Of a stretch of DNA of 64,000 nucleotides, positions 21,162-26,385 are shown piece after piece (position 1 is the stretch's first letter; each line of letters opens with the position of its first letter). The notes beneath the pieces were generated by a model, which saw nothing but the letters and a program-made list of their open reading frames with translations, searched no databases and was not told the origin of the DNA. The stretch comes from Paracoccaceae bacterium (GTDB taxonomy: Bacteria; Pseudomonadota; Alphaproteobacteria; Rhodobacterales; Rhodobacteraceae): contig JACVZW010000058.1 of the NCBI GenBank assembly GCA_014654775.1, positions 124,001 to 188,000 on the forward strand, read 5' to 3'. A program made the position numbers and the translations under genes.

Positions 21162-21180
21162 CGTGATATCGCATATCACG
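21162..21180. promoter_or_regulatory. Palindrome upstream of the OmpA-family gene
   Basis: CGTGATAT-CGC-ATATCACG is a perfect 8-bp inverted repeat with a 3-nt centre, 70 nt before the ATG of the OmpA-family gene. Size and symmetry suit a dimeric repressor or activator. No matching regulator is adjacent. Confidence 0.45.
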
Positions 21181-21249
21181 CTGGATGCTGCACATTGGGC
21201 GGCAAGGCGCGGTCCGGTCAGGCCGCGTGGCAAGGAAAGGATCTTTTGG

Positions 21250-23289
21250 ATGAGACGGTTTCTGATCTCGACCACGGCTTTGTCGGTGGCGCTGACGCAG
21301 GTGGCACCGATGCCCTTGATGGCGCAGACCTTGACGGAGGATGGCAGCGTGATCGCCGAGGACGGGCGGGTGCTGTGCGAGGGCTCGGCGGATGCGCCCT
21401 GCGACCTGAACGCCGTGCTGGAGCAGTTGGCCGCTGAAGCAGCGGCCGCAGAGGCGGCGGCGGCAGAGGCGGCGGCGGCAGAGGCCGAGGCGGCAGCGGC
21501 AGCAGCGGCACAGGCACAGGCGGAGGCCGAGGCGGCAGCGGCGGCACAGGCGCAGGCAGAGGCCGAGGCGGCAGCAGCGGCACAGGCGCAGGCGGAGGCC
21601 GAGGCGGCAGCGGCGGCACAGGCACAAGCGGAGGCCGAGGCGGCAGCAGCGGCACAGGCACAGGCAGAGGCCGAGGCGGCCGCAGCGGCGCAGGCGCAGG
21701 CGGAGGCCGATGCGGCAGCGGCGGCGGCGGCAGAGGCGGCGGAGGGGACCGAGGAGCAGAGCCTTGGCGAGGCCTTGGAAGATATCGTGACCGAGGAAGC
21801 CCCCCCCGAGGAAGCCCCTGCTGAGGTTCCGCCTGAAGCGCCTGCAGCCGAGACGGAAGAGGCCCCAGAAGAGGCTCCGGTCGCAGAGGAAGTGCCAGCA
21901 ACAGAGGCCGCCCCTGCCGAGACGGCGGCGGAAGAGACTGCCCCGGCAGAGGCCGTGACGGAAGGGGCGACCCCCGAAGCCACCCCCGAAGCCACCCCCG
22001 ACGTCAGCCCGGAAGCCGCGACCGAGGAAACGAACGCAGCCCCGGCAGAGGCCCCCACCGATGTGCCCGTTGTCGAGGCGGTTACGGACCCGGCGGTGCT
22101 GGTCGATCCGGCGGCCCCTGAGGCCCCGACGACCGAGGCGGTGGAGACGCTGAGCGAACTTCTGGCACAGCCTGAGGGGGTGGATGCGGCAGCCCTTGGC
22201 GCTGCGGCGACCCTTGCCCCGGTGGTGGTAACGGAAGGCCAGCCGGTGGAGATCGCTCCGTCCACGACGGCGACGGACGTGGTGGTGCAGGAGATCACCG
22301 AGGCGGCAACACGAACCTCGGCGCAGGATTTCACGGCACCTGCTTCGGCCTCGCTGGCGACGGCGGCGGCGGCGTCGAACGATGACGGCGGGCTGACCGA
22401 TCTGCAGAAATTTGGGCTGGTCGCGCTGGGTGCGCTGGCTGTGGGCGCGATCATCAACGCGAACCGCGATCAGGTCGTGTCGAATACCGGTGACCGCGTT
22501 GTCGTGCAGCGCGGTGATGGCAACTATTACATCTACAAGGATGACGACACGCTGTTGCGCCGCCCGGGCAGCACAGTGCGGACCGAAAGTTTCCGCGACG
22601 GATCGACCCGGACGATCGTAGAGCGCGCCGATGGCACGCAGGTGGTGACGATCCGCGACGCGACGGGCCGGGTGCTGCGCCGCGCGACCTATGATGGTCT
22701 GGGCCGCGAGATCGTGCTGATCGACGATCTGTATCCCGAAGAGCGGATCGATGTGACCCGCCTGCCCAAGCCGCGCGAGCGGATGATCAGCCTGTCCACC
22801 TCGGAGGAGGATGCGCTGCTGCGCGCCCGTCTGGCGGCGCTGGATGCCGAGGAACTGGGACGCAGCTTCAGTCTGCGCCAAGTGCGCGAGATCCCGCAGG
22901 TGCGGCGGCTGGCGGCGACGGTGGATGTGAACAACATAACTTTCGACACCGGATCGGCGGCGATCAAGGCAGCGCAGGCCGAATCGCTGGCGGCGCTGGG
23001 GCGGCTGATGACGTCGATGATCGAAGAGAACCCGAACGAGATCTTCCTGATCGAGGGGCATACCGATGCGGTGGGGTCTGCCTCGTTGAACCTGACGCTG
23101 TCGGATCGGCGGGCGGAGAGTGTCGCGTTGGCGCTGACCGAATACTTCGACGTCCCGCCTGAGAACATGGTGGTGCAGGGCTATGGCGAATCGGATCTGC
23201 GCGTGAACACGCAGGATGCCGAGCGGCAGAACCGCCGCGTGGCCGTGCGGATCATCACGCCGCTGCTGCGGCAGGCATCGCTGCAGTGA
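21250..23289 (+). CDS. OmpA-family outer-membrane protein with Ala-rich repeat and acidic stalk
   Basis: A 679-residue exported protein. A 26-residue signal peptide (MRRFLISTTALS...LMAQ) is followed at about 79-157 by five near-identical 12-residue units of type AEAAAAAQAQAE plus partial copies; the DNA unit is exactly 36 nt from 21526 to 21705. A Pro/Glu/Ala-rich acidic region (about 170-330) comes next, then a hydrophobic segment near residue 390 and a C-terminal OmpA peptidoglycan-binding domain (about 560-679; ITFDTGSAAI, EGHTDAVGSA, DRRAESV, NRRVAVRI). It probably spans the periplasm. ATG at 21250 has AAGGAAAGGA upstream. It interrupts the Cox-type maturation genes. Confidence 0.88.
   Translation: MRRFLISTTALSVALTQVAPMPLMAQTLTEDGSVIAEDGRVLCEGSADAPCDLNAVLEQLAAEAAAAEAAAAEAAAAEAEAAAAAAAQAQAEAEAAAAAQAQAEAEAAAAAQAQAEAEAAAAAQAQAEAEAAAAAQAQAEAEAAAAAQAQAEADAAAAAAAEAAEGTEEQSLGEALEDIVTEEAPPEEAPAEVPPEAPAAETEEAPEEAPVAEEVPATEAAPAETAAEETAPAEAVTEGATPEATPEATPDVSPEAATEETNAAPAEAPTDVPVVEAVTDPAVLVDPAAPEAPTTEAVETLSELLAQPEGVDAAALGAAATLAPVVVTEGQPVEIAPSTTATDVVVQEITEAATRTSAQDFTAPASASLATAAAASNDDGGLTDLQKFGLVALGALAVGAIINANRDQVVSNTGDRVVVQRGDGNYYIYKDDDTLLRRPGSTVRTESFRDGSTRTIVERADGTQVVTIRDATGRVLRRATYDGLGREIVLIDDLYPEERIDVTRLPKPRERMISLSTSEEDALLRARLAALDAEELGRSFSLRQVREIPQVRRLAATVDVNNITFDTGSAAIKAAQAESLAALGRLMTSMIEENPNEIFLIEGHTDAVGSASLNLTLSDRRAESVALALTEYFDVPPENMVVQGYGESDLRVNTQDAERQNRRVAVRIITPLLRQASLQ
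21526..21705 (+). repeat. Five 36-bp in-frame tandem repeats in the OmpA-family gene
   Basis: Units start at 21526, 21562, 21598, 21634 and 21670, each opening GCCGAGGCGGC and encoding a 12-residue Ala/Gln/Glu unit; partial units flank them (from 21484 and 21706). Units differ only at silent or Ala/Gln-neutral positions. Copy number is likely to vary between strains. Confidence 0.9.
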
Positions 23290-23332
23290 TTTGACTTAGG
23301 TCAAAGCCGGGGCCGGGCGGTCGGGGTAGAAG
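23290..23332 (+). promoter_or_regulatory. FNR/NNR-type box and -10 element of the candidate small-RNA promoter
   Basis: TTTGAC-TTAG-GTCAAA (23290-23305) matches the TTGAC-N4-GTCAA form of Crp/FNR-family sites. The hexamer TAGAAG at 23327-23332 lies exactly where a -10 should be if the box is centred at -41.5 (class II activation), giving a start at about 23339. The box begins directly after the stop codon of the OmpA-family gene. Confidence 0.55.
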
Positions 23333-23338
23333 AGGCTT

Positions 23339-23444
23339 ATCGGGTGGCCCAACTCCCTTGCACTGCCCGGTCGCGTGCCGCTTCCTCCCTGTTCGGCACT
23401 GCTTTTGCGCCGCGGGTTTCCCAACCCGCGGCGTTTTCTTTTCC
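23339..23444 (+). ncRNA. Candidate FNR-controlled small RNA with anti-Shine-Dalgarno loops
   Basis: A stretch of about 105 nt without coding character between the OmpA-family gene and the xdhC-like gene. It folds into three stem-loops: 23341-23369 (7-bp stem with two G-U pairs, loop containing AACUCCC), 23375-23399 (6-bp GUGCCG/CGGCAC stem with loop CUUCCUCCCUGUU), and a perfect 11-bp terminator stem 23408-23433 followed by UUUUCUUUU. Exposed CUCCC/CCUCCC loops are the hallmark of alphaproteobacterial sRNAs such as CcsR in Rhodobacter and NfeR1/alpha-r14 in rhizobia, which block ribosome binding sites. A long 5' leader of the downstream gene is the main alternative, but the terminator argues against it. 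Confidence 0.5.
23408..23444 (+). terminator. Strong intrinsic terminator
   Basis: An 11-bp perfect stem CGCCGCGGGTT/AACCCGCGGCG with a TCCC loop, followed by TTTTCTTTT. It ends the candidate small RNA and also isolates the OmpA-family gene from the xdhC-like gene. Confidence 0.85.
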
Positions 23445-23539
23445 GCGCTTTGCCAGCCTGATCTTCCACCATTTGGCAGTGGCGCGCCCCGGAAGGGCGG
23501 CGCATGATCGGCACGGAACCTCGTGGGGGATAGACCGGG

Positions 23540-24532
23540 ATGACGGAACGCGCGGCGCATGACAGCCTGCCCGAGATCGCGCTGGACTGGCACAGGGCCG
23601 GGCGCGGGGCGGCGCTGGCCACGGTGATGGAAACCTGGGGTTCGGCGCCGCGGCAGGCGGGCAGCCAATTGGCCATCTCGGGCGAGGGCGAAATCATGGG
23701 GTCGGTTTCGGGCGGTTGCGTCGAGGGCGCGGTGGTGACCGAGGCCTTGGCGGCGCTGCAGGATCGGCGGTCGCGGGTGCTGACCTTTGGCGTGAGTGAC
23801 GAGACGGCCTTTGCCGTGGGGCTGGCCTGTGGCGGCACGATCCGGGTTCTGGTGGAACCGGTGGGCGAGGGGGCGGAGGCGCTGCCCGAGGCGATGCTGG
23901 AGGGGCTTGTCGCAGCGCGGGCGGCGCGGCGGCCCGTGGCGATGGCGGTGACACCGGAAGGGTGGCAGCGGGCGCTGCTGGCCCCCGGGGCGGAGGCGAC
24001 GGTCGATGCGCGGTTCCGGTCGGACAAGTCGGGGATGGAAGAGGATGGGCGGTTCATCGCCGTGCATAACCCACCGTTGCGCCTGATCGTGGTGGGGGCG
24101 GTGCATATCGCGCAGCCGCTTTTGCAGATGGCGCGGCTCTGTGGCTATGACGGGACGCTGATCGACCCGCGGTCGGCCTTTGGTTCCGCGGCGCGGTTTC
24201 CGGGCGAGGTGATCGTCGAGGATTGGCCCGACGAGGCGTTGGAGGCGCTGGCCCCGGACGGGCGGACGGCCATCGTGACGCTGACCCATGATCCGAAGCT
24301 GGACGATCCGGCGATCCGGGTCGCGCTGCGGTCGGGGGGGTTCTACCTTGGCTGTCTGGGGTCCACGCGGACCCATGCCAAACGGGTGGAGCGGTTGCGG
24401 GCCGAAGGGTTCACGGACGGTGAGATCGCGCGGATCCACGCGCCGGTGGGGATGGATATCGGGGCCAAGACCCCGGCAGAGATCGCGGTATCGGTGATGG
24501 CCCAGATCACCGCCGTCCTGCGGAAGGGTTAG
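23540..24532 (+). CDS. XdhC/CoxI-family molybdenum-cofactor insertion protein
   Basis: A 330-residue XdhC-family protein, which binds sulfurated molybdenum cofactor and delivers it to xanthine- or CO-dehydrogenase-type enzymes. The N-terminal XdhC domain shows TWGSAPRQAG, SVSGGCVEGAV and the conserved Cys of GLACGG. The C-terminal Rossmann domain carries VVGAVHIAQPL, FGSAARFPG, TLTHDPKLDDPAI and the GSTRTHAKR / IHAPVGMDIGAKTPAEIAVS block. The start is the ATG at 23540. It joins the next gene with a 4-nt gap. Confidence 0.93.
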   Translation: MTERAAHDSLPEIALDWHRAGRGAALATVMETWGSAPRQAGSQLAISGEGEIMGSVSGGCVEGAVVTEALAALQDRRSRVLTFGVSDETAFAVGLACGGTIRVLVEPVGEGAEALPEAMLEGLVAARAARRPVAMAVTPEGWQRALLAPGAEATVDARFRSDKSGMEEDGRFIAVHNPPLRLIVVGAVHIAQPLLQMARLCGYDGTLIDPRSAFGSAARFPGEVIVEDWPDEALEALAPDGRTAIVTLTHDPKLDDPAIRVALRSGGFYLGCLGSTRTHAKRVERLRAEGFTDGEIARIHAPVGMDIGAKTPAEIAVSVMAQITAVLRKG

Positions 24533-24536
24533 GACG

Positions 24537-25538
24537 GTGTTCTTCGGTGAAGTCGCGCTGGAGGCGGCGGAGGGGGCGATCCTTGCCCATTCTGAAGCCG
24601 TGCCCGGCGGGCGGCTGCGCAAGGGGCTTGTGCTGGGCGGGGCCGAGATCGCGGCGCTTCGGGCGGCGGGGCTGACCCGCGTGACAGTGGCGCGGCTGGG
24701 CCCCGGTGATGTGGGCGAGGATCAGGCGGCAGCGCGGCTGGCGGCGGCGCTGGTGCCCGATCCCGTGGCGCAGGGGCTGCGGCCCGGCGAGGCCTTTACG
24801 GGGCGGGTGAACCTGAATGCGGTCGGGCCGGGGATCGTGGAACTGGACGCGGCGGCGATCCACCGGCTGAACCTTGTCCATCCCGCGATCACGCTGGCGA
24901 CGCTTGCGCCCCTGCAGCGGGTGGTGGCGGGCACGCTGGTGGGGACGGTGAAGATCATCGCCTACGGGGTGGAGGAGGCGGCGCTGGCGGCGGCCTGCGC
25001 GGCGGCGCGGGCGGCGATCCGGGTGCGCCCTGTGGCCCTGCGGTCGGCGGCTTTGGTGATGACCGATGCGCCGGGGTTGGAGGCGAAGATCGCGGCCAAG
25101 GGGCGGCGGTCGATAGAGGGGCGGCTGCGGGCGCTGGGCATGCGGCTGGCGGGGGTAGAAAGCGTGCCGCATGAGGCGGGCGCCTTGACGCAGGCGCTGG
25201 CCCGCGCACCGGGGGAGATGGTGCTGATCCTGACGGGAAGCGCCACCTCGGACCTTGAGGACACGGCCCCGGCGGCGCTGCGCGCGGCGGGGGGACGGGT
25301 GGCCCGCTTCGGGATGCCGGTCGATCCGGGGAACCTGCTGTTTCTGGGCGATTTGGGGGGGCGGCCGGTCATCGGCCTGCCGGGATGCGCGCGCAGCCCG
25401 GCGCTAAACGGCGCGGATTGGGTGCTGGAGCGGCTGGCCTGCGGGCTGGCGGTGGGCGATGCAGAGATCGCAGCGATGGGGGTGGGGGGGCTTTTGAAGG
25501 AGATTCCCTTGCGGCCCCAGTTACGGGAACCGGAATAG
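24537..25538 (+). CDS. Molybdopterin-binding (MoCF-domain) protein
   Basis: A 333-residue protein with a molybdopterin-binding MoeA/MogA-type domain in its C-terminal half (ILTGSATSDLEDTAPAAL, GMPVDPGNLLFLGDLGG, GLPGCARSP). Proteins of this layout sit next to XdhC-type genes and are thought to hand over cofactor precursors. The start is GTG at 24537, 4 nt after the XdhC stop; no in-frame ATG near the 5' end gives a better fit. No catalytic molybdo-enzyme subunits follow. Confidence 0.8.
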   Translation: MFFGEVALEAAEGAILAHSEAVPGGRLRKGLVLGGAEIAALRAAGLTRVTVARLGPGDVGEDQAAARLAAALVPDPVAQGLRPGEAFTGRVNLNAVGPGIVELDAAAIHRLNLVHPAITLATLAPLQRVVAGTLVGTVKIIAYGVEEAALAAACAAARAAIRVRPVALRSAALVMTDAPGLEAKIAAKGRRSIEGRLRALGMRLAGVESVPHEAGALTQALARAPGEMVLILTGSATSDLEDTAPAALRAAGGRVARFGMPVDPGNLLFLGDLGGRPVIGLPGCARSPALNGADWVLERLACGLAVGDAEIAAMGVGGLLKEIPLRPQLREPE

Positions 25539-25610: not shown

Positions 25611-26150
25611 TTACTTCGGCGCGATCATCATCACCATCTGGCGGCCTTCGAGGCGGGGCATGGATTCCACCTTGCCATTCTCGCCCACATCGGCGGCCAC
25701 GCGGTTGAGCAGGTCAAGGCCAAGTTCTTGGTGCGCCATCTCGCGGCCGCGGAAGCGGAGGGTGACCTTCACCTTGTCGCCCTCTTCGAGGAACTTCAGG
25801 ACCGAGCGCATCTTGACCTGATAATCATGGGTATCGGTCCCGGGGCGGAACTTGATTTCCTTGATCTCGATGATCTTCTGCTTTTTGCGCGCCTCGGCCT
25901 CGCGCTTCTGCTGTTCGTATTTGAACTTGCCGAAGTCCATGATCTTGCAGACCGGGGGTTCCGCATTCGGGCTGATCTCGACGAGGTCGAGGCCCGCCTC
26001 TTCGGCCAGCGCCATCGCGCGGGCGGGTGTCACGACCCCGATATTTTCCCCGTCGGCGCCGATCAGGCGGATCTCGGGGGAGCGGATGCGTTCGTTCACA
26101 CGGGGGCCCGTCTCGCGTTGCGGAGGGGCGTTGTGGGGTCTGCGGGCTAT
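25611..26150 (-). CDS. infC: Translation initiation factor IF-3 (ATA start codon)
   Basis: A 179-residue IF-3, which binds the 30S subunit and controls start-codon selection. The N-domain carries [22 protein letters not shown], and the helical linker and C-domain ([33 protein letters not shown]) are complete. The natural start is an ATA codon at 26148-26150: it opens [11 protein letters not shown] at the position where homologues begin and has an AGAAGGA Shine-Dalgarno 8 nt upstream. The only upstream in-frame ATG (26237) adds 29 residues unlike IF-3. Non-AUG infC starts, which IF-3 itself discriminates against, are known in other bacteria. Confidence 0.93.
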
Positions 26151-26385
26151 GGTGGTGGTCCTTCTGCGGTTTCCGTTCGGCGCGCGCAATCTAGTCGGCC
26201 ATGGGGGCGGTTTCAACGGGAATCGCTTGGTGCGCAAGGGGAAAGCGCGGCGAGGTGCAGGTCGTTCGCAGGGCGGAAAGCCGCCCGTGGAGCGGGGGGA
26301 TGTCGGTTCCGGGGTTCAATTCGGGGACAAGTCGGCCCATATGGGCGGCACAAACGGCGCGATCGCCGGAATCGGGAGAATTCGG
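26151..26385. other. Divergent intergenic region infC / Ala-rich gene
   Basis: No gene seen. It must hold the infC promoter and leader and the promoter of the Ala-rich gene. A short GGGCGG-AAAG-CCGCCC hairpin lies near 26270-26290. No clear sigma-70 pair stands out. Confidence 0.35.

Follow-up and report, generated by a model that had tools for sequence, protein, structure and literature searches.

FnrL governs the transition of Rhodobacter to an anaerobic and photosynthetic life. In R. capsulatus, FnrL affects 807 genes, of which 42 are direct, so that its effects are mostly indirect, and 34 of 82 ChIP peaks have no responding neighbor gene (PMC4634722). Two small RNAs of R. sphaeroides, RSs0019 and RSs2461, have FnrL sites by ChIP-seq (PMC4263372). 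These RNAs, Pos19 and SorX respectively, and PcrZ are low-oxygen- or FnrL-linked RNAs of Rhodobacteraceae, and FnrS of Escherichia coli shows a similar control logic, in which a small RNA has an FNR site in an activating position (PMC4263372, PMC8139620). DenR (sRNA-29) of Paracoccus is likewise a Rhodobacteraceae small RNA linked to anaerobic metabolism (PMC6686037). The cuckoo RNAs, which include CcsR1-4 (RF02791) of R. sphaeroides and alpha-r14/NfeR1 (RF02344) of Sinorhizobium, have two to four hairpins, each with a CCUCCUCCC loop (PMC3927594, PMC10746234).

Here, we describe a candidate small RNA in a 64-kb stretch of DNA (the window). It is akin to FnrS in its predicted control, and it shares with the cuckoo RNAs putative anti-Shine-Dalgarno hairpins, diverged stems, and an alphaproteobacterial host. 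It differs from each of them, however. PcrZ has a PrrA site (PMC8139620), whereas the window RNA has an FNR box. SorX is a 3' end product of an ompR-like mRNA and depends on RpoHI/HII, and Pos19 depends on RpoE (PMC5036791, PMC3320616); hence, neither is obviously of the same family. The available portions of PMC8139620, PMC5036791, and PMC3320616 describe no CUCCC-loop layout for PcrZ, SorX, or Pos19. DenR is antisense to Pden_0526 and is highest under aerobic conditions (PMC6686037). CcsR is controlled by RpoHI/HII (PMC10253847) and NfeR1 by LsrB/NtrC (PMC10746234), whereas the promoter of the window RNA is of the FNR type. A literature search found no description of the window RNA, though R. 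capsulatus small RNA lists may include it; it did not appear in the available portions of PMC6348098, PMC8307010, PMC6515984, PMC9603517, and PMC9603854.

RESULTS

A predicted small RNA gene between ompA and xdhC

A gap of 250 nt separates an OmpA-family gene from an xdhC-like gene and contains a box, a -10 element, hairpins, and a terminator. The features, in window positions, are as follows.

21163..23289, + strand: OmpA-family protein gene (PF00691), ending immediately 5' of the FNR box and positioned so that it could share the RNA's terminator
23291..23304, + strand: FNR-type box TTGAC-TTAG-GTCAA, centered at -41.5 from the predicted start
23327..23332, + strand: -10 element TAGAAG, at class II spacing to the box
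23339..23442 (folded as 23339-23445), + strand: predicted small RNA of about 104 to 107 nt, its start deduced from class II spacing
23339..23371, + strand: stem-loop 1 (SL1), with CUCCC at 23353-23357 in the loop (fold and covariation)
23373..23402, + strand: stem-loop 2 (SL2), with loop CUUCCUCCCUGUU and UUCCUCCC at 23382-23389 (fold and covariation)
23407..23444, + strand: intrinsic terminator, a 12-pair stem at 23407-23434 and a U-rich tail (fold and covariation)
23540..24532, + strand: xdhC-like gene (PF13478, PF02625)
24537..25538, + strand: gene for a molybdopterin-binding-domain protein (MoCF; PF00994)
25611..26237, - strand: infC, translation initiation factor IF-3 (PF00707, PF05198), the family's syntenic anchor

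The neighbors with Pfam matches are OmpA, XdhC, MoCF, IF3, and VWA_CoxE. The N-terminal half of the OmpA-family protein has a long alanine/glutamate/glutamine-rich repeat region. Just 5' of xdhC, at 23466-23509, lies a block, CCACCATTTGGCAGTGGC ... GCATGATC, that is similar in congeners without the small RNA and is probably the xdhC promoter region.

A first-pass annotation had proposed an FNR-controlled small RNA, responsive to oxygen or NO, with two anti-Shine-Dalgarno loops in this gap. Both promoter elements that it named, the TTGAC-N4-GTCAA box and TAGAAG at class II spacing, are present, and their positions predict a class II start at about 23339. The pattern TTGAYN4RTCAA occurs a single time in the window, against 0.06 expected, and at least once in 5 of 100 shuffles. 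Is the gap also free of reading frames, as had been claimed? Only loosely: mechanical ORFs of 72 and 49 amino acids span it, yet in loop 2 relatives differ by a single-base indel, which changes the frame, and we rejected a coding reading of the RNA. High GC content keeps frames within the RNA open in many relatives.

Folding of 23339-23445 gave SL1, SL2, and the terminator at a minimum free energy (MFE) of -46.8 kcal/mol (z = -5.06), a value equally low in 0 of 200 shuffles; the loops are AACUCCCUUG (loop 1) and CUUCCUCCCUGUU (loop 2). Both of the claimed stem-loops are thus there with CUCCC in their loops, but the A's of AACUCCC in SL1 are not simply loop-exposed: they lie within a short inner helix of the MFE structure that is outside the six-species consensus. 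The terminator and its U-run also stand, though the stem has 12 pairs and a 4-nt loop instead of the 11 bp first described. Judged from its sequence, the gap very likely holds a small RNA gene under FNR-type control.

Loops are invariant and stems covary among congeners

A DNA search of 101 genomes gave matches in three congeners beside the own genome, with identities of 84, 83, and 76%, and two weak matches confined to the terminator end of the query. Among 19 congeneric genomes, own genome included, three (G004, G011, and G017) are without a close xdhC match; we examined 16 congeneric loci (L007-L022) 5' of xdhC. The box, two CUCCC loops, and a terminator occupy the ompA-xdhC gap in 6 of the 19 genomes, again counting our own (L007, L008, L009, L011, L012, and L016). 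Half-sites of the box vary among these six orthologs between TTGAC and TTGAT and between GTCAA and ATCAA, which is the type of variation that FNR sites allow. In the remaining ten loci, the 450 nt next to xdhC contain no TTGA-N6-TCAA. Four of them (L010, L013, L014, and L015) have a different gene upstream, L019-L021 have a different sequence 3' of ompA, and L017, L018, and L022, by reading of the sequence, have a terminator-like hairpin directly 3' of ompA.

The first-pass annotation had set stem covariation in relatives as a test, and we found it. In a sequence-only alignment of the six orthologs, the loops are invariant (CUCCCUU and UCCUCCCUG) while the stems vary. Pairing holds in 98.7% of 156 cells, and both partners have changed in 9 of 26 pairs; 0 of 500 shuffles matched either measure, while the count of further pair types was unremarkable (53 of 500 shuffles). 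When the alignment was slid out of register, pairing fell to 36-53%. Double changes affect four of eight pairs in SL1, two of eight in SL2, which is 100% paired, and three of ten in the terminator.

Covariance models recover relatives in other genera

A covariance search of Rhodobacteraceae genomes had also been called for, and it found relatives in other genera. Model R1 was built from the six congeneric orthologs with the promoter left out and was run on 198 family genomes, of which 9 had matches at E <= 0.01. Two of these are of the window type. Five others (G034, G171, G104, G042, and G030) combine an upstream FNR box with CUCCC in three places, namely two hairpins and the terminator loop (GGGC(U)CUCCCUCCC), a three-loop form. 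The matches in G115 and G218 are without an FNR box.

Model R2 was built only from the five three-loop sequences. Run on the 19 congeners, it gave some match at E <= 0.1 in 12, and its three best matches were the window locus in the own genome (6.5e-9), G002 (7.8e-9), and G006 (3.5e-7). The filtered genome search with R2 missed the window-type locus in three of six genomes (G009, G012, and G014); in named records, R2 scores those three loci at 39.4 (L090), 31.9 (L135), and 32.0 (L068) bits. No second copy was found in the own genome with R2 at E up to 0.1. R1 and R2, each made from one half of the family, therefore recover the other half. We define the family by its FNR box, CUCCC loops, and infC/ompA/xdhC neighborhood, and for the window RNA we found both this reciprocal match and a conserved neighborhood.

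We scanned named genomes with the pattern TTGAYN4RTCAA-N44-52-CTCCCT-N20-50-CTCCCT and obtained 73 stretches, 41 of which we assigned to the family. R2 matched 38 of these at E <= 1e-4 at the pattern position; L105 (R2, 1.1e-4) and L098 and L112 (no match at E <= 0.01) were added on their loops and ompA neighborhood. Named members include Rhodobacter capsulatus (L107, L129), R. viridis, R. aestuarii, R. maris, and R. amnigenus, as well as Thioclava, Phaeovulum, Sinirhodobacter, Defluviimonas, Frigidibacter, Gemmobacter, and Tabrizicola. Two members, L125 and L138, come from one metagenome-assembled genome titled Sphingomonadales, perhaps through a binning error. The other 32 stretches, mostly from unrelated phyla, look like chance; among them, L077 (titled Albidovulum) has no R2 match, and L120 and L132 are possible distant relatives. 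Among 295 family genomes, 10 carry the same pattern, the own genome and G002 being two of them; with the reversed control, the count is 0.

Model R3, made from 38 sequences and promoter-free, had matches at E <= 0.001 in 35 of 394 family genomes. The family is patchy, with strong R3 matches in 12 of the 394 sampled genomes and the locus in 6 of 19 congeners. Weak model matches are partly terminators only (L043, L044, L045, L048, L052, and L154-L160). With 38 sequences fitted to R2, an alignment biased toward its own model structure, 93.3% of 1,148 cells were paired versus 77.0% in shuffles, and 25 of 32 pairs had double changes versus 15.8. A sequence-only alignment of 27 relatives kept the inner part of SL2 and the terminator and lost the SL1 stem. 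In single-sequence folds of relatives, by our reading, the first CUCCC usually lies in a 5' hairpin, though not in L120.

Several divergent loci have CUCCC or CCUCCC in hairpin or terminator loops and an FNR-type box 5' of the model match, at 43 to 54 nt in L194, L195, L199, L200, L201, and L207 and at 145 nt in L198. All seven are possible further subfamilies. L192 has three consecutive hairpins with CCUCCC loops 3' of a gene and no FNR box, and it is a candidate for another anti-Shine-Dalgarno-type RNA.

Synteny and the neighboring genes

We searched the 41 named loci for the window's neighbor genes by tblastn; the length of flanking DNA varies among them. infC lies downstream on the opposite strand in 26, ompA lies upstream in 12, and infC and/or ompA is nearby in 34. 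Six of the seven members with neither cover at most 1.4 kb of downstream DNA, one of which (L096) has infC 3.3 kb upstream instead; the seventh, L140, covers 3.9 kb and still has no infC. The full window order ompA-RNA-xdhC-MoCF-infC occurs in four loci (L068, L090, L097, and L135), and in Frigidibacter (L080, L119) an RNA of the capsulatus form sits between ompA and xdhC. These loci join the two RNA forms and tie both to one ancestral locus.

Could the locus mainly be where the ompA-like transcript ends, a 3' untranslated region with its terminator from which an RNA might be processed, and the box a secondary promoter or nothing? The box begins immediately 3' of the ompA stop codon, and three congeners without the RNA have a terminator-like hairpin at just that place. 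In R. sphaeroides, both SorX and CcsR arise by processing of longer transcripts (PMC5036791, PMC3320616, PMC10253847). Between ompA and the RNA, we found no terminator before the RNA's own, and transcription reading through from ompA may therefore supply part of the RNA. However, the distance of the box and the -10 element are conserved, covariation extends to SL1 and SL2 and is not confined to the terminator, and R. capsulatus and Thioclava have the same RNA and box with no ompA match in the upstream DNA examined. We consider this explanation quite unlikely.

The RNA is also upstream of xdhC on the same strand, as a cis-acting leader or attenuator of that gene would be. Yet a strong terminator stands between the two, the conserved block adjoining xdhC is found in congeners without the RNA as well, and only 8 of the 41 named members have an xdhC match in the DNA examined. 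On this last count, we rejected the leader reading, which we hold to be highly improbable. Since the neighbors differ between genera, the RNA is not simply an xdhC leader or an ompA 3' end, and a separate small RNA gene remains our preferred reading.

The promoter and its putative regulator

A TTGA-N6-TCAA box lies at -48 to -50 in each of the 12 R3 matches with E <= 1e-9. The R3 training set, which was chosen by the box-containing pattern or by R1, already contained 11 of the 12, or close copies of them; L184 was the exception. Of the 18 weaker R3 matches that we examined, a TTGA-N6-TCA(A/G) box lies between -20 and -75 in 7, and in six of those it is at -43 to -54; the others have no box, and several are terminators only. 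In 42 nonredundant family promoters, the -10 element has T at its first position in 32 and A at its second in 37; the box itself is a given here, as 42 promoters (of 43) were picked by the box-containing pattern.

A search of the own genome for HTH_Crp gave 20 places, 11 of them above the cutoff. Among the ten of these that were translated, one protein, L161, matches the NCBIfam FnrL equivalog at 470 bits (cutoff, 300) and has an N-terminal cysteine cluster; by this match, the genome encodes FnrL. L164 and L166 also have N-terminal cysteines, with FnrL matches far under the cutoff. The window box fits the R. capsulatus FnrL ChIP-seq consensus, (T/C/A)TGA-N6-TCAA (PMC4634722), and the exact R. 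capsulatus box, TTGACCTATGTCAA, is absent from the main text of that paper. What marks an FNR-activated small RNA, a class II FNR site on its 5' side, was found here relative to the predicted start.

Comparison with known RNA families

The first-pass annotation knew of no named RNA with such a layout, and this holds by Rfam, where no family reached threshold. At E up to 1, the search of window positions 20 to 27 kb returned only anti-hemB of Burkholderia (RF02837), to which SL2 and the terminator align at 27.7 bits; we rejected this identity because the score is below the gathering score of 49.5 and hemB is not among the Pfam-named neighbors. FnrS was not among the Rfam matches at the window locus, and we know of no multi-loop CUCCC layout for it. 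Nine relatives gave no match at gathering score. In L049, ar14 reached 25.3 bits against a threshold of 58.8. As a positive control, the own genome's CcsR array scored 99.7 bits.

Membership in the cuckoo family was rejected. The loops are CUCCC(U), not CCUCCUCCC; neither RF02791 nor RF02344 matched at gathering score; and no DUF1127 gene (the CIN1 locus) lies beside the window RNA, its neighbors being ompA, xdhC, and infC. A three-CTCCCT pattern in congeners finds CcsR-like arrays elsewhere, apart from the window RNA, and we rejected CcsR membership for the latter.

The CcsR array of the own genome (L056; G000:C18, about 25.0-25.6 kb, reverse strand) is a long tandem array of CCUCCUCCC-type hairpins, separate from the window RNA. 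It matches Rfam CcsR1, has nine CTCCCT in 3.1 kb, and appears to exceed the four CcsR of R. sphaeroides in size.

Within the scope of our searches, the RNA family is new, and it is of a known general kind.

Candidate targets

The loop 2 complement (ACAGGGAGG) occurs before start codons 11, 13, and 9 times in three genomes, versus 4, 1, and 4 times for the reversed pattern; two own-genome sites are counted twice, and some excess is expected because AGGGAGG is itself Shine-Dalgarno-like. Several of these complements precede long open frames, and many others precede only short ones. Judged from translations, the genes that follow include TRAP/ABC substrate-binding proteins and secB (G000, G002). 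Loop 1 complements at start codons showed no excess in the three genomes (10 versus 9 in the reversed control); of those ten, L217 is just the RNA locus read on its other strand. Hence, we rejected loop 1 targets.

In an own-genome sample (464 kb; 369 genes called by a simple script), the longest match was 12 nt and lies before a TRAP-type binding protein gene that was already among the pattern finds. A test for enrichment of substrate-binding proteins in this sample was set aside as circular, since its queries came from pattern hits. Among nine independently found SBP_bac_5 (PF00496) genes, three had at least 8 nt of complementarity versus 16 of 369 in the sample (p = 0.0075); this test improves on the circular one but is small, three of the nine genes also count in its background, and its start-picking script favors Shine-Dalgarno pairing (the L274 start looks wrong). 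Duplex energies of the SBP_bac_5 genes did not differ from the sample (p = 0.27), and pairing of the nine with 16S rRNA was no stronger than in the sample. The data are only suggestive that loop 2 pairs with ribosome sites of some substrate-binding-protein genes. The sequence AACAGGGAG recurs at ribosome sites of substrate-binding proteins in the own-genome sample (L249-L268 and the window).

Perhaps the RNA is a sponge or another kind of RNA whose CUCCC loops bind, for example, a regulator or another small RNA rather than ribosome sites? Invariant loops on variable stems fit this as well, and loop 1 shows no ribosome-site excess. On the other hand, anti-Shine-Dalgarno loops have alphaproteobacterial precedent (PMC10746234, PMC3927594), and several loop 2 complements do sit before long open frames. 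We think binding of this kind unlikely and an anti-Shine-Dalgarno mode of action, argued from sequence and analogy, likely.

DISCUSSION

The distance of the box, stem covariation, the invariant loops, the terminator, the presence of FnrL, and the negative Rfam result agree in supporting the reading of an FNR-controlled anti-Shine-Dalgarno small RNA. With good confidence, we propose an orthologous, FnrL-activated, trans-acting small RNA family of Rhodobacteraceae that carries anti-Shine-Dalgarno loops and is distinct from cuckoo/CcsR/ar14.

In the absence of oxygen, FnrL would be present as dimers whose iron-sulfur cluster is intact; by binding the box centered at -41.5, these would switch on a class II promoter, as the site, its spacing, and the presence of FnrL suggest. 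The transcript, about 105 nt, would end at the intrinsic terminator. Its hairpins would keep CUCCC(U) single-stranded, and pairing with AGGGAG-type ribosome sites would block translation in trans; this step is suggested by the conserved loops and by analogy with NfeR1 and CcsR. Among its plausible targets are mRNAs for ABC/TRAP substrate-binding proteins, and oxygen-dependent silencing of transporters is a guess. More tentatively still, and with somewhat less than even confidence, the family may be an undescribed counterpart of FnrS in which a fall in oxygen shuts translation of high-affinity uptake systems (ABC/TRAP substrate-binding proteins) via AGGGAG sites; at a single ancestral locus near infC, each lineage would have tuned its own number of loops (two, three, or more).

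Membership of R. capsulatus makes the family testable in a genetically tractable strain. If our reading is true, anti-Shine-Dalgarno loop RNAs would have a branch tied to oxygen sensing, distinct from the stress-controlled CcsR, and an FnrL-driven small RNA in R. capsulatus would provide a concrete route for part of the indirect effects of FnrL.
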